This document shows, piece by piece, positions 7,058 through 35,080 of a stretch of 64,000 bases of DNA (positions within the stretch are counted from its first letter, which is position 1; each line of letters opens with the position of its first letter). Under the pieces are notes generated by a model that searched no databases, was not told the origin of the DNA, and worked only from the letters and a program-made list of their open reading frames with translations. A program made the translations under genes and the position numbers. The DNA is from Tridacna crocea (lineage: Eukaryota; Mollusca; Bivalvia; Cardiida; Cardiidae), in NCBI GenBank assembly GCA_943736015.1, contig OX031073.1:26873210-26937209 (forward strand), given 5' to 3'.

Positions 7058-8132
7058 TCATCTATATAGTTTTAGTAAGACTTTTCTGTCAGCTCCCCAG
7101 TCCATGCTGGAGACAAGTCGTAAAAGATTAAGGGCTTTCTGGCATTTATTACTTAAGTAATTGATGTGGGGAATAAACGACAGTTTAGAGTCAAATAAAA
7201 GACCTAAAAATTTGAATTCAGGAACGACTTCAATTTGTACCCCATCCAAAATAAGCTCAGGATCCAAGTGTAATTTTCTTGATTGGCAGAAATGCATACA
7301 TTTGGTCTTGGTTTTAGAAAATTTGAAACCATTTTCTCTTGACCACTTGCTTAAATCATTTAAGTACTTGCTGTAACTGCCGCTCTATTGTATGCATATG
7401 CTTGGATCTATAGCAAATACAGAAGTCGTCAACATACAAAAAGCATTCCACGCAAGGGCACACAGACTTCACAATATTGTTGATTTTGACACTGAACAGT
7501 GTAACAGAGAGAATGCTTCCCTGGGGAACGCCCATTTCTTGTTCATGAGGGTTTGAGTGAGTATCTCAAACCCGGACTCTGAACTGACGTTCATTAAAAA
7601 AAAAAAGCCGAAATGAAGTAAGCAAGGCGACCTCTTATACCGAAATCATGGAGGTCGCTCATGATTCCATACTTCCATGTGGTATCGTAAGCACTTTCGA
7701 GGTCGAAAAATACAGAAACAACATGTTCCTTTTTTTTATAAAAGATCCGCGAATAAAAGTTTCGAAGCGAACTAAATGGTTGAGAGTGCCTCTTTGTTTG
7801 CGAAAACCGCTTTGAACGGTAGCAATAAGTTCGTTTTTCTCTAGAAACCGAACAAGCCGGTCATTGACCATCCTTTCCATTGTTTTGCAAATACAACTTG
7901 TTAAGGCTATAGGACGATAATTGGTAGGATTTGTCGAGTCTTTACCCGGTTTTGGTATGGGAATTACAATGGCCTCATTCCAGGAATCTGGGAGAATACC
8001 AGTATGCCAGACTTGATTAAATATGCGAAGTAAGCAGTCGAGGGATAGAAATGGTAAATGTTTCAAAAACTGGTAATGGATGTCGTCACATCCAACAGCA
8101 GTGTCATGACCTTTCTTTAATGCATTCGTCAT
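7058..8132 (-). pseudogene. LINE ORF2 reverse transcriptase domain
   Basis: Fingers and palm: WNEAIVIPIPKPGKD, NYRPIALTSCICKTMERMV and QSGFRKQRGT (7659-8132). After frameshifts come FFDLESAYDTTW near 7690 and the catalytic YVDD at 7426-7437. The thumb/connection block FKFLGLLFDSKLSFIPHINYL is at 7058-7297. All are hallmark RT motifs in the right order. At least two frameshifts separate the pieces, and poly-A/T tracts mark some of them. Confidence 0.88.
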
Positions 8133-8331
8133 TTCTTTTATAGTGAAATCTTTATTGTAATATCCATTGTTATTCGACTTAAAATTTAACTTTGTTTTTT
8201 TCTTTAGTATTTTGAAATTTCTGAAATGCTGTCGAATAATTTAAAGAAGAGGATTCCTCTGCAAAGGTGTCAGCTAAGATATCTGCAATGTCTGCATTGG
8301 TGGTGACGACATCATCACCAACATTTAAGTG

Positions 8332-9498
8332 TCAAATATTTAATGAGGAGTTTTTGCCGTTAATTTTCCGGATCATGTCCCATGTCTTTTTGACAGACGA
8401 TCTAGAATTTAATCTGGACACGTACTGTCGCCAAGACGCACGTTTACTTTGCTTGATAGTCCGACGTGCTTTTGCACGAGCAATTTTAAACTTTGAAAGA
8501 TTTTCTTTGGTTGGTCTCAGGTTAAATTGTCTCAGAACAGATTTTCGTTCTGTTATAGCCTTTTTGCAATCATCATTAAACCATGGCTTGTTTGGGTGCT
8601 TTAGATTTGTCGAAGTTCGAGGAATTGACTTTTCAGCAGCCGAATAAATCAAGGAAGTGAAGAGCTCGGCAGGATTTTCACAATCTTCAAAAGCACTGGG
8701 ATGAATTGCCTGCTCGCAACGAATTCTGAATTGTTCCCCATTCGCTTTGTGAAGCTGCCAGCGTTGAGGACGTTGTTGTACTGAAGGCCCTACTTCCGAT
8801 ACTTTTATAGGGAAGTGATCACTTCCATGAAGGTCATCACAAACCTTCCAGTTAAAATCTGGAACAATTCCAGAGCTGCATATTGTTAGATCCAATGATG
8901 ATTAAGAACCAGTAGCAGGATGAAGATAGGTTGAGGACTTATCATTTAGCAGAACAAAGTCGTGCTTCGTGATAAAATCCTCAATGATTTGACCCTTGCC
9001 ATTAGTATCTGAACATCCCCATAATGTATGATGGGAATTAAAATCGCCCATTAAAATGAAAGGCTTCGGCAACTGAGCCACAAGATCATCAAGTTTTCTA
9101 ACATCAATTGGTAAACTAGGTGGAAGATAAATGGAACATAAAGTAATGGTCTTGTTGAGAGTAATGTTTACTGCAACGGCTTGTAAGGTAGTGTTAAGCT
9201 TTACACAATGGTGTGGAACACTGTTTTTCACAATGACAGCAACACCTCCTGAAGCTTTATAGTTATCAGTAAAGTTTTTCAAGTAACAAGAGTGATACTT
9301 CAAAGAAAACTTGTGCGAGTCTTTAAGAAATGTTTCCTGTAAACAAAGCACTACTGGCTGCTGTTCGTTAGGTAAGAGATTTAATTCCTCGACTTTAGCT
9401 TTAACGCTTCGACAATTCCATTGCAGAATATTGTTAGTCATAAGAAAATTGAGAATTAGGATAATACCACAGAGTTTTGGAAGTACGTGTTTGTTCAT
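8332..9498 (-). pseudogene. LINE ORF2 APE-type endonuclease and linker
   Basis: Starts near NILQWNCRSV, then CLQETFLK (catalytic Glu), ILMGDFNSHHTLWG (Asp/Asn pair) and GSDHFPI (terminal His motif). That is a complete endonuclease/exonuclease/phosphatase-fold signature. A single in-frame stop at 8902-8904 interrupts it; the frame continues to 8332 through a basic linker rich in Arg/Lys. A frameshift then separates it from the RT domain. Confidence 0.88.
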
Positions 9499-26533: not shown

Positions 26534-26690
26534 CAGTCATTTCGTACCTAGTTAATTTCGTACCTAGGTCATTTCGTACGATTTTGGTCATTTCGTACCT
26601 ACCTATACTTTCTATTTTGGTCATTTCGTACCCAGTTGGTCATTTCGTACACAGGTTTAATTATCATTTTGATTATTTAGTACCTAGGTT
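26534..26690 (+). repeat. short tandem array GTCATTTCGTACC
   Basis: At least six units built on GTCATTTCGTACC(T/C)AG, spaced irregularly by 14-35 bp with T-rich spacers; the last unit is TTATTTAGTACCTAGG. It encodes only a low-complexity frame and is not coding. Confidence 0.8.
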
Positions 26691-28037: not shown

Positions 28038-28655
28038 TTAAAGGTGATTAACATGAGGAATGTCAAATTTTATTTCACGTTTTATGGATGTAATTGTCTT
28101 GCACACAGGACAAGCATTTAACGTTGATAGTTGGTTACAGTCTCCACAAATGCATATGTGACCACAACTACAAAACATTACATTTGGTTTCTCATCGAGA
28201 CAGATAACACATTTTTCTTCTTGGAATGATTCTTCATCATTAATATGTATATTTTCCATGCTTTCTTCTTCGTTTTCTTCGTTTTCTGAATGTAGGGGAG
28301 TCAAAGATAAATCATAACCTAAATATTTTTCTTCAAAAGAATTTATTTTTGTAAAATCATGTAATGCACCCCAATATTCACCATAATATTCTATAAAAGA
28401 TCTAGAGACAACATCACTTCGACCTTCAATTTCAGGTATAAGAGATTTAAATGTTAAGACTGGATATAAATGAAAATTATCTGGTTCTGGTTCTCTATCA
28501 TCATTTTCATTTAATTCTAACAAAGCATTTTTATAATCACCTAAAAAATTATTACTTCGATGAAAGGGTATCGTAATACCGGTAAACATAGCTCTACCAT
28601 AATAACGATATGGATCTTCAGGGTCGGGGTTTAGACATAAATCTGGCCAAGACAT
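28038..28655 (-). CDS. small RING-finger protein, intronless, possibly of viral origin
   Basis: A 205-residue frame with no lesions. The N-terminal 120 residues are not recognised. An acidic Glu/Asn-rich linker (about 121-147) leads to a C-terminal C3HC4 RING: C149, C152, C164, H166, C170, C173, C182, C185, reading CVICLDEKP...CSCGHICICGDC...CPVC. This IAP/Mib-type spacing usually marks E3 ubiquitin ligases. Only 18 bp separate it from the stop of the next ORF upstream, and codons are very A/T-rich. Tight packing, lack of introns and small size suggest a gene block from a large DNA virus or a Maverick-like element; that is inference. A host RING gene cannot be excluded. It starts at the first Met after a stop. 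Confidence 0.65.
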   Translation of the reverse strand: MSWPDLCLNPDPEDPYRYYGRAMFTGITIPFHRSNNFLGDYKNALLELNENDDREPEPDNFHLYPVLTFKSLIPEIEGRSDVVSRSFIEYYGEYWGALHDFTKINSFEEKYLGYDLSLTPLHSENEENEEESMENIHINDEESFQEEKCVICLDEKPNVMFCSCGHICICGDCNQLSTLNACPVCKTITSIKREIKFDIPHVNHL

Positions 28656-28673: not shown

Positions 28674-28889
28674 TCAAGATTCATTTAACTTATGCTCACT
28701 ATGTAAATAATAAATAAATGGCATTAATCTGCTAAGTAGGAAAAAAGAATCCTTCTTACCTCTTCTTTCCCATTCAAAATAGAATTTTAATAGTTCTTTA
28801 TCAGAATTATAAATGTAAAACATACAGTTTTTTTTATTTACTATGGTATTTACTAAATCATGTAGAGCTTTATAATGTAGTTTATCAAG
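28674..28889 (-). pseudogene. small ORF split by the LTR retrotransposon, 3' part
   Basis: The minus strand is open from the LTR junction to a TGA at 28676-28674, rich in Lys, Leu and aromatic residues. Its start codon and first few codons lie on the far side of the retrotransposon, at 35080-35068. The 4-bp target duplication CAAG is the junction. Without the insertion it would be an intact frame of about 70 codons between the RING gene and the ORF at 35113. Function unknown. Confidence 0.6.
28886..28889 (+). repeat. LTR retrotransposon target duplication, left
   Basis: CAAG, repeated at 35068-35071. Confidence 0.8.
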
Positions 28890-29447
28890 TGTTACGAGTC
28901 AGGCGTAACTAGAAAGAAGAAGCCAGCAACAAACGATAACAATTAACAGAATTTATTAACAAAAATATCAAATAAACAGTGACAATATTACAATAGTACA
29001 AAACAATACCTTAGACGTTAAATTCAAAAGACAAATTATTCCAGTCTTAATTCCAGTCTGATCCTGATCCAAACTGAATGTAATCCAAGCACACGAAATA
29101 ATCCTCACTTTGGTCTAGTCTGATCGTAATCCAAACTGAATATAATCCAAGCACTTATGACACAAACACAAGATAATCCCCACTGTAGTCTGGCAACCAT
29201 GTATTAACTAGTGAACCCTGAGATGTAAAAAGCTTTTCCCTTTATAATAACAGGGAAACTTCCAGAAAATTCATGTTAAAATCAGTTGCATAATTTTCTA
29301 GTAAACAGATTGTAAAAAGGCCTGGAAACTTCCAGCACAATATTCCACCAGAGAGAATCCAGTTCTAAAAATAGCAAAAGGGGAAAACCATTCAAATATA
29401 GATACACACATGAACAAAGCTAGGAATAACTGGGTATGTACATAACA
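28890..29447 (-). repeat. 3' LTR
   Basis: 558 bp, bounded by TG and CA on the element strand, no difference seen from 34510-35067. It contains several GTAATCCAAACTGAAT-type internal repeats and a TTTATAATAA stretch that may serve as a TATA/poly-A region. Confidence 0.95.
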
Positions 29448-29458
29448 CTTCCCCCCTT
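29448..29458 (-). other. polypurine tract
   Basis: AAGGGGGGAAG on the element strand, directly abutting the 3' LTR. This is where plus-strand DNA synthesis is primed. Confidence 0.88.
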
Positions 29459-29671
29459 GAAAAGAAAAAGAAAGGTTTATGAAATAAATCTTTCTTTTTT
29501 GCAATATTATTTATATACATGTATATAATACTTTAACTGAAGTATTACAGAGGAAATGGCAAACTCAAATATTAATTATTTCAGACTAATGAAAATAATC
29601 CAGGTAATGAAATCACAATTTAAAAGAAAAACAGTTTAAACTTGATTTAGGGAAAAATGACTATTGGAATT

Positions 29672-32600
29672 TCAAACTCTTGAAAGAGCATCTGGTATAA
29701 TGTTATCTTTCCCTTTTATGTGTCTTATGTCAAGATTAAACTCTTGAAGCAATAAACTCCACCTCAGTAATCTTTGATTCTTATTCTTAAGTTTGTGTAG
29801 AAAACTTAAAGGGTTATGATCACTGAATACAACAATTGGTGAAGTTGAAGAGGTTAAATAAACTTCAAACTGCTGGATTGCCAGAATTAAGGCAAGACAC
29901 TCTTTTTCTATGGTAGAGTAATTTTTCTGATGTTTGTTTAATTTCTTAGAAAAGTAACAAACTGGGTGATCAATACCATTATTATCTTCTTGTAAAAGAA
30001 CAGCACCAATACCAACATCACTTGCATCAACAGCTAATTTGAAACATTTGTCAAAATCAGGTGCCAAGAGAACTGGTGCGCTCTTTAGTATGGCTTTTAG
30101 ACGATCAAATGCATCTTGACATTTGTCATTCCATTTGAACTTTGTGCTTTTCTTAAGTAAATTTGTTAAAGGTTCAGCAATACCCGAGAAATTTTTACAG
30201 AATTTCCTATAGTAGCCAGCCATACCAAGAAATCGCATCAGCTGTCTTTTACATTTAGGCACAGGAAACTCAGAGATAGCATTGACTTTAGCCTCTAAAG
30301 GTTTAATTTGACCCTGTCCCACAAGATGTCCTAGAAATGTTACAGTAGCATGACAAAATTCAGTTTTTGCAAGATTCACAGTCAGTTTCGCTTTACTGAG
30401 TCTGTCGAAGAACTTCCTGATTCTTTGAAAGTGGTCACTCCAACTGTCTGAGTAGATGATGACGTCGTCAATATATGCATCACAGCCATCTAATCCACAT
30501 ATAACGTTGTTTATAAGCCGCTGAAACGTTGCAGGAGAATTTTTCATCCCAAACGGCATAACTTTGTATTGGTACAGACCGTTTGGAGTAGCAAAGGCTG
30601 ATACTTCTTTTGCTCTATCAGTCAGTGGAACTTGCCAGAATCCTTTTAGCAGGTCAAATTTGGTGACATATTTAGAATTTCCAACTTTGTCAATACAGTC
30701 ATCAATTCTTGGTATTGGAAAAGAGTCTGTTTTTGTCACAGAGTTCACTTTACGATAGTCAGTACACATTCTATAAGTTCCATTTGATTTAGGTACTAAT
30801 ATACATGGTGAACTGTAATTACTCTGGCTAGGTTCAATAAAGTCATTTTCCAGTAAGTATTTTACTTCATCTTGGAGGTATTTCTGTTTCAAAGGATTCA
30901 TTCTATATGGATGTTGCTTTATTGGTTTAGAATCTTCCACAATGACATCATGATAGATTTTATCTGTTCTTGTGGGGATATCAGGAAATAAATGTTCATA
31001 TTCATGTATCAACTGTTTCAGCTCTTCCTGCTGCGATGGTTCCAAGTGAGAAAGTTTGTTGTCGAGGTTTCTCAAAATATCCGAATTTTCAAGTTTAGAT
31101 GGACCAGGATCAGATTTATCAATAAAGTCAGAATTTACTTCAAGATCAGATACATTTGATTCTTGTGGGACAGTGTTTATAACTGTAATTGGTTTTGAAA
31201 TAGAGCTATCTCTGTCAAAGTATTCCTTTAACATATTTACATGACACATTTGTTTGTTTTTACGCCTTCCTGGAGTATTAATTATATAGTTTAAATCACT
31301 TGTTTTCTTGTCAATAGTGTAGGGTCCAAAATATCTTGCCTGTAGAGGTCTGCCAGGTATTGGTAAAAGAGCAAGGACTTTATCACCTGGTTTAAATTTT
31401 CTATCAATAACATGCTTGTCATATCTTGCTTTCATTTTGCCCTGAGACGTTTTAAGATTAGACCTAGCAACCTCACATGCCCTAGACAGTCTATTTCTGA
31501 AGTCAGAAACATACTGCAGTAAATTCAAGGGTGTTTCGTCATTTGAGAGAAATTTCTCTTTCAAAAGTTTTAAAGGTCCACGAACAGAATGGCCAAAAAC
31601 TAATTCAAAAGGACTGAAACCAAGAGATTCTTGCACAGATTCTCTGACTGCAAATAGTAACAAATGGATGCCCTCATCCCAATCTTTTTCCGTGTCAAAG
31701 CAATATGACCTTATCATATTTTTTAATGTCTGATGAAATCTTTCTAAAGCACCTTGACTTTCAGGGTGATAGGCGGATGACCTATATTGCTTGATTCCTA
31801 ATTCATGCATAACCTGTTGGAATATACCAGACATAAAATTTGACCCTTGATCAGACTGAACTGATTTTGGAAGACCAACAAATGTGAAAAACTTTATAAG
31901 AGCTTTGACTATGGACTTTGTTTTGATGTTCCTTAAAGGAATAGCTTCAGGAAAACGTGTAGAAGTACACATAATTGTTAAGAGATACTCATTTCCTGAC
32001 TTGGTTCGAGGTAAAGGACCAACACAATCTATAAGTATCCTACTGAAAGGTTCATCAAAAGCAGGAATAGGTTGTAATTGAGCTTTGGGAATGGTTTGGT
32101 TGGGTTTACCTACCATTTGACATGTATGGCAAGTTTTACAATATTTAGAGACATCTGATTTGAGACCAGGCCAATAAAAATGATTAATAATTTTGTGATA
32201 GGTCTTGTTTATACCTAGGTGACCTGACATAGGACTTTCATGGGCTATACTTAGTATTTCATGACGATATGACTTTGGAACCACAATTTGGTGGTAAACA
32301 GCCCATTCATCATCAGCTGGGACATCAAATGGTCGCCATTTTCTCATAAGAATCCCATTCTTTATATAGTAACACATTGGGACCTGTGAAATTTCATCTT
32401 CAGGTAAAGCCCTAAAAATTAATTTTGAAATCTCAGGATCAGTTTGCTGTTCCTGGATAAGCTGTGACTTTGACAGCGTGTCGTGACCTTGGTCAATAGA
32501 CCGTGGTGGTGAATGACAAGACATTGACAAGTCTGTCTGAGTATCAGACAAACTGGGATCAAGAGACTTTTTAATCTCATTATTAAAATATTGACCGATA

Positions 32601-33019
32601 AAAGTATCCGTCAAGTCAATGTCAGAGTTTGAGTTTTTCAAAATGGCCTTTTTAGCCATAGCTCGGGTAACTGCACAAGAGGGATACAAATCAGGAATTT
32701 CCTGCTCGATAGGGTCATCTGTTTGACCTATATTTGGTGTGTCAGTTACAAGTGGATTAACCACAACCTTATCTCCAGCTAAGTCATTGCCTAGCAATAA
32801 ATGGACACCTTTAAATGGTAAGGAAGGTTTAATACCAATAACCACAGGCCCAGTAACCAAATCTGATGACAAATTAACATGATGGAGAGGGATATTAACA
32901 GTTCCACACTCTACACCCTGAATAAGGACACTAGTACCGGAAGAAGTCTTCTCAGAAAAAGGCAGTATATCTGCTAAAATAAGAGATTGAGAAGCTCCTG
33001 TGTCTCTTAAAATTTTAAT
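29672..33019 (-). CDS. pol: Pol polyprotein: protease, integrase, reverse transcriptase, RNase H
   Basis: The open frame starts at 33064, but true pol sequence begins about 33019, just past a C-run. Numbering from 33064: protease ILRDTGAS (Asp21); integrase zinc site H275, H282, C312, C315; catalytic D346, D405, E441 with exactly 35 residues between the last two; a GPY-like RYFGPYTI at 577-584; RT from about 700 with TDYRKVN, FDLLKGFWQ and YIDD (864-867); RNase H D1013, E1053, D1082, D1125, ending DALSRV. All active-site residues are present over 1115 codons without a stop. The integrase is upstream of RT, with the C-terminal GPY module intact, so a whole-domain rearrangement at the origin of the clade fits better than local damage. 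It has to be expressed from gag by a +1 shift, or a one-base homopolymer change has separated them. Confidence 0.95.
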   Translation of the reverse strand: MKILRDTGASQSLILADILPFSEKTSSGTSVLIQGVECGTVNIPLHHVNLSSDLVTGPVVIGIKPSLPFKGVHLLLGNDLAGDKVVVNPLVTDTPNIGQTDDPIEQEIPDLYPSCAVTRAMAKKAILKNSNSDIDLTDTFIGQYFNNEIKKSLDPSLSDTQTDLSMSCHSPPRSIDQGHDTLSKSQLIQEQQTDPEISKLIFRALPEDEISQVPMCYYIKNGILMRKWRPFDVPADDEWAVYHQIVVPKSYRHEILSIAHESPMSGHLGINKTYHKIINHFYWPGLKSDVSKYCKTCHTCQMVGKPNQTIPKAQLQPIPAFDEPFSRILIDCVGPLPRTKSGNEYLLTIMCTSTRFPEAIPLRNIKTKSIVKALIKFFTFVGLPKSVQSDQGSNFMSGIFQQVMHELGIKQYRSSAYHPESQGALERFHQTLKNMIRSYCFDTEKDWDEGIHLLLFAVRESVQESLGFSPFELVFGHSVRGPLKLLKEKFLSNDETPLNLLQYVSDFRNRLSRACEVARSNLKTSQGKMKARYDKHVIDRKFKPGDKVLALLPIPGRPLQARYFGPYTIDKKTSDLNYIINTPGRRKNKQMCHVNMLKEYFDRDSSISKPITVINTVPQESNVSDLEVNSDFIDKSDPGPSKLENSDILRNLDNKLSHLEPSQQEELKQLIHEYEHLFPDIPTRTDKIYHDVIVEDSKPIKQHPYRMNPLKQKYLQDEVKYLLENDFIEPSQSNYSSPCILVPKSNGTYRMCTDYRKVNSVTKTDSFPIPRIDDCIDKVGNSKYVTKFDLLKGFWQVPLTDRAKEVSAFATPNGLYQYKVMPFGMKNSPATFQRLINNVICGLDGCDAYIDDVIIYSDSWSDHFQRIRKFFDRLSKAKLTVNLAKTEFCHATVTFLGHLVGQGQIKPLEAKVNAISEFPVPKCKRQLMRFLGMAGYYRKFCKNFSGIAEPLTNLLKKSTKFKWNDKCQDAFDRLKAILKSAPVLLAPDFDKCFKLAVDASDVGIGAVLLQEDNNGIDHPVCYFSKKLNKHQKNYSTIEKECLALILAIQQFEVYLTSSTSPIVVFSDHNPLSFLHKLKNKNQRLLRWSLLLQEFNLDIRHIKGKDNIIPDALSRV

Positions 33020-34385
33020 AGGGGGTAGGTGGGCAATTATCACCTGAAAGTGATACAAAACCATTCAACATAAATGGTTCAAAAATCTCCATAGTAGAAT
33101 CAGACTTGGGTTTTGTGACTATGTCAATTGTATCGGATTTAATAGAAGACTGTGGCCTTGGTCTAAGAGTGGTGAGCCCTGTTGGTTTGGTTTCATCACT
33201 TTCTAACTTCCTTTTTAGTTTCAAACATTCAGAAACAAGGTGACCAGGTTTCTTACAATAGTTACAAGTGGGTCGAGATAAGGGATATTGACTTTTGGTT
33301 TCACTAGTAGAATTGGGTTTGGGTGTATTGGATTGACTGGGCATGCCAGATGAATTACCAGACATAGATTTATTTTGGGGATGTGAGGAAGTAGGTTTTG
33401 GTTTAGCAATAAAAGAAACTTTATGTGTAAGGTAGTAGTTATCAGCCAGACGAGCTGCTTCTTGTAAAGTTTCGACTTGTTTTTCGTCTAAGAATGTCTT
33501 AACATCAAATTGAATACAACGTTTGAATTCTTCAACTAACATAAGTTGTCTTAGTTTATCATAATTTTGGTCTATTTTCTTAGAACAGCACCATCTATCA
33601 AATAACTGTTCTTTGTTTCTAGCAAATTCAACATGAGTCTGGTTAGAATCTTTTTTACAATTTCTAAATTTTTGTCTATATGCTTCTGGGACCAGCTCAT
33701 AACCTTTGAGAATAAGTTCTTTAACAGTCTCATAATGATGACATTGTTCAACACCTAATTGTGTATAAATTTCACGAGCTTTGCCTATCAAAACACTTTG
33801 CAAAAGCAAAGTCCAGTGCTCTTTTGGCCAATTTAAGTTTTCTGCAACTTTTTCAAAATGTAGGAAGTATTTATCAACTTCTTTTTCTTGAAATGGAGGA
33901 ACAAGCCTAATATGTTTTGTTACATCGAAATTGTATTCAATCTTTTGCTTGGGCTGATTTGCTCTTTCTTGCATTTCTATTTCCCTCATTTTTAATTGAA
34001 ATTCTCTCTCTTTCTCTCTCTCTTCTCTTTCCCTTTCTCTTTCCCTCTCTCTCTCTTCCCTTTCTTCTCTCTCCCTTTCTCTTTCCCTTTCCCTTTCCTT
34101 CTCTCTTTCCTGAATTTCTAATTGTCTGATCTGAAATTTTAATTCAAGGTCTTTCGAACTTGAAACTGACTGAACGTCAACTATCAGGGAAAGAGCATTT
34201 TCATTGAAAATCTCCTCATCAACAAAATATTGTACCAAAATGTTCTTAATTTCATGTTTACGCATTGAAGATTTTATTTCAGACAATTTATAGTGCTTAG
34301 CAAGATTAAGCAAATCAGTCTTTTTACCTAAATTCAGTAACTCCACAGACGGTTCAGCCGTAAATTTATCTAAGTCAAAAGACAT
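33015..34385 (-). CDS. gag: Gag polyprotein with SAP-like N-terminus, coiled coil and zinc knuckle
   Basis: Made of 456 residues. Residues 20-55 (LLNLAKHYKLSEIKSSMRK) resemble a SAP/LEM-type helix pair. Residues 90-140 are an almost pure Arg/Glu coiled coil. Residues 150-320 form a capsid-like helical domain resembling the SCAN/retrotransposon gag fold (HFEKVAENLNWP, WTLLLQSVLIGKA, LILKGYE). A CCHC knuckle, C374-X2-C377-X4-H382-X4-C387, binds RNA. The start is the first Met, about 100 bp after the primer-binding site. It ends in PPTPY-stop, 50 bp into the open pol frame. The Arg/Glu tract is encoded by a (GA)-rich purine run that is length-unstable. Confidence 0.93.
   Translation of the reverse strand: MSFDLDKFTAEPSVELLNLGKKTDLLNLAKHYKLSEIKSSMRKHEIKNILVQYFVDEEIFNENALSLIVDVQSVSSSKDLELKFQIRQLEIQEREKEREREREREREEREEREREREREREEREKEREFQLKMREIEMQERANQPKQKIEYNFDVTKHIRLVPPFQEKEVDKYFLHFEKVAENLNWPKEHWTLLLQSVLIGKAREIYTQLGVEQCHHYETVKELILKGYELVPEAYRQKFRNCKKDSNQTHVEFARNKEQLFDRWCCSKKIDQNYDKLRQLMLVEEFKRCIQFDVKTFLDEKQVETLQEAARLADNYYLTHKVSFIAKPKPTSSHPQNKSMSGNSSGMPSQSNTPKPNSTSETKSQYPLSRPTCNYCKKPGHLVSECLKLKRKLESDETKPTGLTTLRPRPQSSIKSDTIDIVTKPKSDSTMEIFEPFMLNGFVSLSGDNCPPTPY
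33020..33026 (-). other. candidate +1 frameshift site between gag and pol
   Basis: ACCCCCT on the element strand. Gag reads ACC CCC TAT TAA; pol requires the frame one base further on (CCC CCT ATT AAA). Protease homology starts immediately after. Either a programmed +1 shift works here or the C-run has gained one base in this copy. Confidence 0.55.
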
Positions 34386-34486
34386 GTTTGTTTGTTGCTG
34401 GATTCAAGTACAAAATTGTATTATAATTAGTGATTAGTAGACGAATGCGTTAGTCTTATTTTTCAATCCCGTTAGTCTATTTTCCA

Positions 34487-34504
34487 ATCCCGGACGAGCC
34501 CCCA
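34487..34504 (-). other. primer-binding site, tRNA-Pro
   Basis: On the element strand, TGGGGGCTCGTCCGGGAT starts five bases after the 5' LTR. It is complementary to the 3' 18 bases of animal tRNA-Pro including CCA. This is from knowledge of tRNA-Pro-primed retroelements, without a tRNA from this genome. Confidence 0.85.
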
Positions 34505-34509
34505 ATTTC

Positions 34510-35067
34510 TGTTACGAGTCAGGCGTAACTAGAAAGAAGAAGCCAGCAACAAACGATAACAATTAACAGAATTTATTAACAAAAATATCAAATAAACAGT
34601 GACAATATTACAATAGTACAAAACAATACCTTAGACGTTAAATTCAAAAGACAAATTATTCCAGTCTTAATTCCAGTCTGATCCTGATCCAAACTGAATG
34701 TAATCCAAGCACACGAAATAATCCTCACTTTGGTCTAGTCTGATCGTAATCCAAACTGAATATAATCCAAGCACTTATGACACAAACACAAGATAATCCC
34801 CACTGTAGTCTGGCAACCATGTATTAACTAGTGAACCCTGAGATGTAAAAAGCTTTTCCCTTTATAATAACAGGGAAACTTCCAGAAAATTCATGTTAAA
34901 ATCAGTTGCATAATTTTCTAGTAAACAGATTGTAAAAAGGCCTGGAAACTTCCAGCACAATATTCCACCAGAGAGAATCCAGTTCTAAAAATAGCAAAAG
35001 GGGAAAACCATTCAAATATAGATACACACATGAACAAAGCTAGGAATAACTGGGTATGTACATAACA
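34510..35067 (-). repeat. 5' LTR
   Basis: 558 bp, no difference seen from 28890-29447. It carries the element promoter. Confidence 0.95.
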
Positions 35068-35080
35068 CAAGGACATTCAT
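35068..35080 (-). pseudogene. split small ORF, 5' part with start codon
   Basis: ATG at 35080-35078 followed by three codons and the CAAG duplication (35068-35071). The rest of the frame is at 28674-28889, across the retrotransposon. The start lies 32 bp after the stop of the ORF at 35113. Confidence 0.55.

Follow-up and report, generated by a model that had tools for sequence, protein, structure and literature searches.

An integrase-first group of Gypsy elements, the Gmr1 clade, reportedly goes back to a 2002 description by Goodwin and Poulter based on deuterostomes. The domain order of Gmr1, in which protease (PR) is followed by integrase (IN), reverse transcriptase (RT) and RNase H (RH), is also given in PMC2582038. 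Here we analyze a 64,000-nucleotide stretch of contig OX031073.1 (the window), in which a long terminal repeat (LTR) retrotransposon of 6178 bp occupies positions 28890-35067 on the minus strand. This element is very probably a recently inserted Gmr1-like Ty3/Gypsy retrotransposon, since it combines an integrase-first domain order with a SCAN-type gag and since 9 of 15 sibling copies retrieved from the same genome carry gag and pol in a single frame. A preliminary description had arrived at the Gmr1-like reading from pol. The domain order and separate RT and integrase trees (built without cod Gmr1) support that reading, and the gag, which the description had not used, is of the SCAN type and therefore points to the same group. 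An integrase-first Gypsy clade with a SCAN-type capsid is thereby represented by a young family of many copies in an invertebrate host that is probably a bivalve.

According to a frog study, SCAN occurs in over half of the Gmr elements and in none of the other classes (PMC4131045), and a zebrafish study, without naming Gmr1, reports five elements in which SCAN is encoded between the LTR and pol (PMC8672886). The vertebrate SCAN domain is derived from a Gmr1-like gag in a review (PMC3424704), and this type of capsid is thought to be the source of a large vertebrate gene family. With Gmr1-like elements such as Gmr1 of cod, the family of the window element has in common the PR-IN-RT-RH order, RT and integrase of the Gypsy type, a SCAN-type gag, the lack of env and the overall size. 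The single gag-pol frame of the Gmr1-like group is matched by 9 of 15 siblings, whereas in the window copy gag and pol occupy differing frames, and the host here is an invertebrate, probably a mollusc. Pufferfish Gmr elements measure 6058-6465 bp and encode one gag-pol of 1506-1634 aa without env; they resemble the window family in size, in the single gag-pol and in having young copies, but differ in host and in LTR length, which is 337-518 bp compared with 558 bp here (PMC11117352). Gmr1-like members outside deuterostomes are already known from crustaceans, as partial sequences (PMC3587641), and from an annelid, in which family LGF3 comprises fewer than 25 elements (PMC8220671). Both are placed in the clade as protostome members by these papers, and the present family differs from them in its full-length copies and their higher number. 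In a wider annelid study, the Gmr1 clade was not found (PMC8556966).

Domain order and gag type of the element

The two LTRs of the window element are identical across 558 bp and a 4-bp target duplication, CTTG, flanks the element on both sides (Table 1). Judged by its LTRs, the insertion is young. The primer-binding site resembles a tRNA-Pro primer site. Since only 224 nt, with no open reading frame (ORF) of 100 aa, separate pol from the 3' LTR, the element has no env. Its domain order and LTR anatomy are far beyond chance.

Table 1 Features of the LTR retrotransposon, with positions in the window.
Feature	Position	Strand	Evidence
Target-site duplication, 5' side (CTTG)	35068..35071	.	Flank sequence, LTR comparison
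5' LTR, 558 bp, TGTTA...TAACA ends	34510..35067	-	Exact repeat of 28890-29447
Primer-binding site, 5 nt past 5' LTR	34487..34504	-	Sequence; core after 5' LTR in 11/11 pairs
gag ORF, 456 aa	33015..34385	-	ORF list; Pfam
SCAN-type capsid domain in gag (PF02023)	33423..33689	-	6.3e-11, 42.4 bits, cut-off 27
CCHC zinc knuckle in gag (PF00098)	33225..33269	-	0.003, 18 bits, under cut-off 20.8; CCHC spacing intact
gag/pol ORF overlap, 50 nt, differing frames	33015..33064	-	ORF list; sibling comparison
pol ORF, 1130 aa, PR-IN-RT-RH	29672..33064	-	ORF list; motifs; Pfam
Protease active-site motif DTGAS	32990..33004	-	Motif
Integrase zinc-binding domain (H2C2), PF17921	32108..32281	-	Pfam 4.3e-23
Integrase core (rve) with D-D-35-E, PF00665	31763..32050	-	Pfam 9.3e-13; spacing check
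Integrase C-terminal domain (Integrase_p58_C) with GPY motif, PF22938	31226..31327	-	Pfam 1.4e-10; motif
Reverse transcriptase with YIDD, PF00078 (RVT_1)	30326..30796	-	Pfam 7.9e-36
RNase H, PF17917 (RT_RNaseH)	29738..30058	-	Pfam 1.9e-36
Polypurine tract ahead of 3' LTR	29448..29458	-	Sequence
3' LTR, 558 bp, same as 5' LTR	28890..29447	-	Repeat comparison
Target-site duplication, 3' side (CTTG)	28886..28889	.	Flank sequence

Pol was searched against Pfam as three pieces, 32465-33064, 31166-32464 and 29672-31165. As the integrase domains lie in the second piece and RVT_1 and RT_RNaseH in the third, integrase precedes RT, in agreement with the preliminary description. That description had also placed protease, an HHCC/DD35E/GPY integrase, an RT with YIDD and RNase H in one frame, which is borne out by motifs and Pfam, with the protease called from the DTGAS motif and its position in pol. 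The DTG of the protease is pol residue 21 and YIDD is residue 864. From the sequence we assign the integrase HHCC to H275, H282, C309 and C312, while the catalytic triad consists of D346, D405 and, after 35 residues, E441. The span first proposed for this region, 29672-33019, falls in the same ORF, but the frame extends to 33064, so that the end proposed falls 15 codons short of the first ATG.

The SCAN model was also run against the genome (an assembly of 1.049 Gb in 31 contigs), where 150 of 929 candidates were scored; all 150 were above the cut-off and 72 of them lay within open frames of at least 1500 aa. Some of the SCAN matches sit in short open frames, for example those at L053 (177 aa) and L065 (261 aa). 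The model gave matches in none of 14 control genomes; the eight that are named are prokaryotes and this control therefore says little about animals.

Related proteins and the RT and integrase trees

A protein search with RT-RNase H returned 7682 proteins at 1e-10 and a profile made from three deuterostome relatives returned 2478 proteins at 1e-20, of which the best 120 were listed in each case. Integrase precedes RT in 177 of the 178 distinct listed proteins and follows it in none, the remaining one being without integrase, and a gag is visible in 114 of the 178. Hosts of the listed relatives include a coral, a hemichordate, a brittle star, sea cucumbers, a sea urchin and the bivalves Pinctada imbricata and Pecten maximus. 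The RT and integrase of the window element are 63-72% identical to those of sea urchin, sea cucumber, brittle star, hemichordate and coral elements, several of which have a gag. The proteins from Pinctada imbricata (P0133) and Pecten maximus (P0143), which carry names such as hypothetical or uncharacterized only, display the order GAG-PR-IN-RT-RH in a single protein and are 64-71% identical in RT and integrase.

Four of the listed matches (P0033, P0049, P0051 and P0061), with RT 75-84% identical, are filed under Campylobacter, Candidatus Thiodiazotropha and a Lucinoma symbiont. Candidatus Thiodiazotropha and the Lucinoma symbiont live in lucinid clams. These four are likely to be animal host DNA within bacterial assemblies. 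Pattern scans of prokaryotic and viral contigs matched 52 prokaryotic and 2 viral stretches and confirmed no relative, with patterns that reach close relatives only; a prokaryotic or viral source was rejected on this result.

Separate trees of RT and integrase were calculated from 32 rows, comprising the window element, 22 relatives (from 120), eight conventional Gypsy families and Ty3. The conventional rows stem from the same genome, were picked by differing open-frame lengths from 150 places and are not assigned to named clades such as Mag, CsRN1, Cigr-1 or MolGy; in all eight RT comes before integrase. A branch separates the integrase-first rows from all others in the RT tree (100/100) as well as in the integrase tree (98/97), and the eight conventional families fall outside the clade of the window element. 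The tree program flagged long branches both here and in quick RT and integrase trees to which four further named rows had been added, and in which the split was found again. It was also present, with 95/96 (RT) and 98/97 (IN), when Ty3 and three long conventional rows were left out and the long row L070 was retained. P0025 is the sister of the window element in the 32-row and the four-rows-added trees and its nearest row in the reduced tree. Judged by these trees, RT and integrase are both of the Ty3/Gypsy type and have a joint history. The preliminary description had asked whether the two domains might group with different families, and both group with the same elements.

Several observations weigh against the Gmr1-like reading. 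The relatives were counted only from the best 120 of 7682 and the best 120 of 2478 matches. The protease piece (32465-33064) matched no Pfam family at 0.01, and gag matched no solved structure at 0.01, so the SCAN assignment comes from Pfam. The window LTR is 95-97% like the LTRs of 28 other loci retrieved, and in the window copy gag and pol do not share a frame. Finally, the trees were made without a Gmr1 reference sequence, none being among the 120 matches listed from either protein search, and the grouping of integrase-first rows against distant conventional ones is partly built in because the rows were found with the window RT or its close kin. The lack of cod Gmr1 in the tree comparison leaves room for an independent Gypsy lineage, unrelated to Gmr1, in which integrase moved ahead of RT on its own. 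We consider such a lineage very improbable, since both the order and the RT and integrase identity given above are common with echinoderm, hemichordate and coral elements, several with gag, and the size of the family, its LTR length and its gag-pol length come close to the values of pufferfish Gmr elements (PMC11117352).

In both four-rows-added trees, an element from the coral Paramuricea falls inside the 19-row group that holds the window element, with Shimodaira-Hasegawa-like approximate likelihood ratio test (SH-aLRT) values of 98 and 99, whereas the Pinctada and Pecten elements fall outside this group in both trees. Host and element histories therefore disagree. Horizontal transfer may have carried the integrase-first clade from one animal phylum to another, which we regard as unlikely; the same tree picture would arise if several old lineages had persisted together in one host.

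Sibling copies, the gag-pol junction and other element classes

With the window LTR as query, 40 of 1850 candidates in the genome were scored and listed, and among these we counted 16 LTR pairs 5.6-5.8 kb apart, the window included. Both LTRs were retrieved and the flanks compared for 11 of the 16 pairs. All 11 have a 4-bp target duplication, and their LTRs are identical in seven and show 1-2 mismatches in the other four. The 15 other pairs, hereafter the siblings, were retrieved with their internal parts; they are the copies most similar to the window LTR and not a random sample. The order GAG-PR-IN-RT-RH is present in every one of them, and integrase after RNase H, which the preliminary description had named as an arrangement that would count against its reading, occurs in 0 of the 15 siblings retrieved. 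Nine of them have one unbroken gag-pol frame of 1558-1601 aa and six are interrupted; copies with an intact gag-pol frame are present in the genome. Beside one sibling, at L006:470-964, lies an inverted second LTR-like stretch, 84% identical, which may be an older relative or a nested insertion. At L029 and L030, family LTRs stand just 1.56 kb apart with more LTR matches at the ends of the locus, as in an internally deleted or tandem copy.

Gag and protease share one frame in 14 of the 15 siblings, the exception being L043, and the first 14 residues of the window pol ORF are likewise unmatched in 14 of 15. The two-ORF layout is thus most likely a lesion of the window copy and not the design of the family, and a normal Gag-Pol probably cannot be made from the window copy's own frame. 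Because 14 of 15 siblings keep gag and protease in one frame, the window copy is young yet probably broken. It had previously been called complete and young; the identical LTRs uphold its youth, while its coding frame is not complete, as gag and pol differ in frame. A programmed frameshift that joins the two frames would instead make the window copy fully working. Gag-pol frameshifting is common in other LTR elements, the overlap of 50 nt is short and L043 too has two frames at the junction. Nevertheless, the junction of L043 differs in length from that of the window copy and its gag has a further break, and with the single frame of the other siblings and the initial pol residues that lack a counterpart in them, we find a programmed frameshift extremely improbable.

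Among solved structures, the closest to the integrase is Ty3 integrase (7q5b, 2.9e-34) and the closest to the RT is Ty3 RT (4ol8, 7.2e-90). Yeast Ty3 has RT and integrase of the same type as the window element but, unlike the latter, carries integrase after RNase H (in the 7q5b chain the RT-RH match spans 584-1008 and the IN match 1078-1449). Integrase after RNase H, by which conventional Ty3/Gypsy elements are recognized, is not found in the window element. As for Ty1/copia, the Pfam scan of the window element reported no copia-type RT (RVT_2) and RVT_1 instead, and the best solved RT is that of Ty3. The copia-like domain order might also hint at a mosaic of a Gypsy RT fused to an integrase from copia, BEL or another family, but this has practically no chance of being right, as the integrase is closest to Ty3 and has H2C2 and p58 C-terminal domains, RVT_2 was not reported and the integrase tree agrees with the RT tree (neither containing copia or BEL rows). 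Copia and mosaic origins are rejected on these Pfam, solved-structure and tree results.

The Gmr1-like family would move by an ordinary LTR cycle, starting with a transcript from the LTR. Its Gag-Pol polyprotein would be cleaved by its own protease, a particle would be built with the SCAN-type capsid, reverse transcription would be primed by a tRNA and integration would proceed through a 4-bp staggered cut, the activity of each enzyme being predicted from its sequence. The domain order in the polyprotein would differ from that of the usual Gypsy, whereas the steps of the cycle would not. A single ancient move may have brought integrase ahead of RT. The window copy itself was presumably either carried by the proteins of its siblings or broken at or after the last round of copying.

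Probable molluscan setting and neighboring sequence

At positions where the COX1 of this genome agrees with a solved COX1, AGA and AGG stand for Ser, AAA for Lys, TGA for Trp and ATA for Met. Such a mitochondrial code marks the host as an invertebrate; it is in keeping with a mollusc, annelid or arthropod and speaks against a vertebrate, tunicate or echinoderm. Together with the relatives in bivalves, the code makes the mollusc host proposed in the preliminary description likely. COX1 gave a single match, on contig C31, whose 29,009 bp are long for an animal mitochondrial genome.

A survey of LTR elements in molluscs from 2018 names Gmr1 once, in the introduction, and lists six known Gypsy clades without it, next to 16 new MolGy clades, one of which might be the integrase-first group (PMC6238403). 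Since the survey did not list the clade, mollusc repeat libraries and clade counts may miss it (PMC6238403). A Gmr1-like element of a mollusc was not reported among the matches listed in searches of open-licence literature. Proteins with the same domain order are present in public genomes of bivalves, where their names are uninformative.

Adjacent to the 3' end of the element, a single-exon ORF of 205 aa (28038-28655, minus strand) has a C-terminal RING finger (7.6e-10); none of 37 candidates was a homolog at E 0.001. Pieces of an element resembling a long interspersed nuclear element (LINE) lie at 7659-9498 on the minus strand, with an RT fragment at 7659-8132 and an endonuclease at 8902-9498. 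Finally, two tandem units of 52 nt with GGTCATTTCGTAC are found at 26567-26670.

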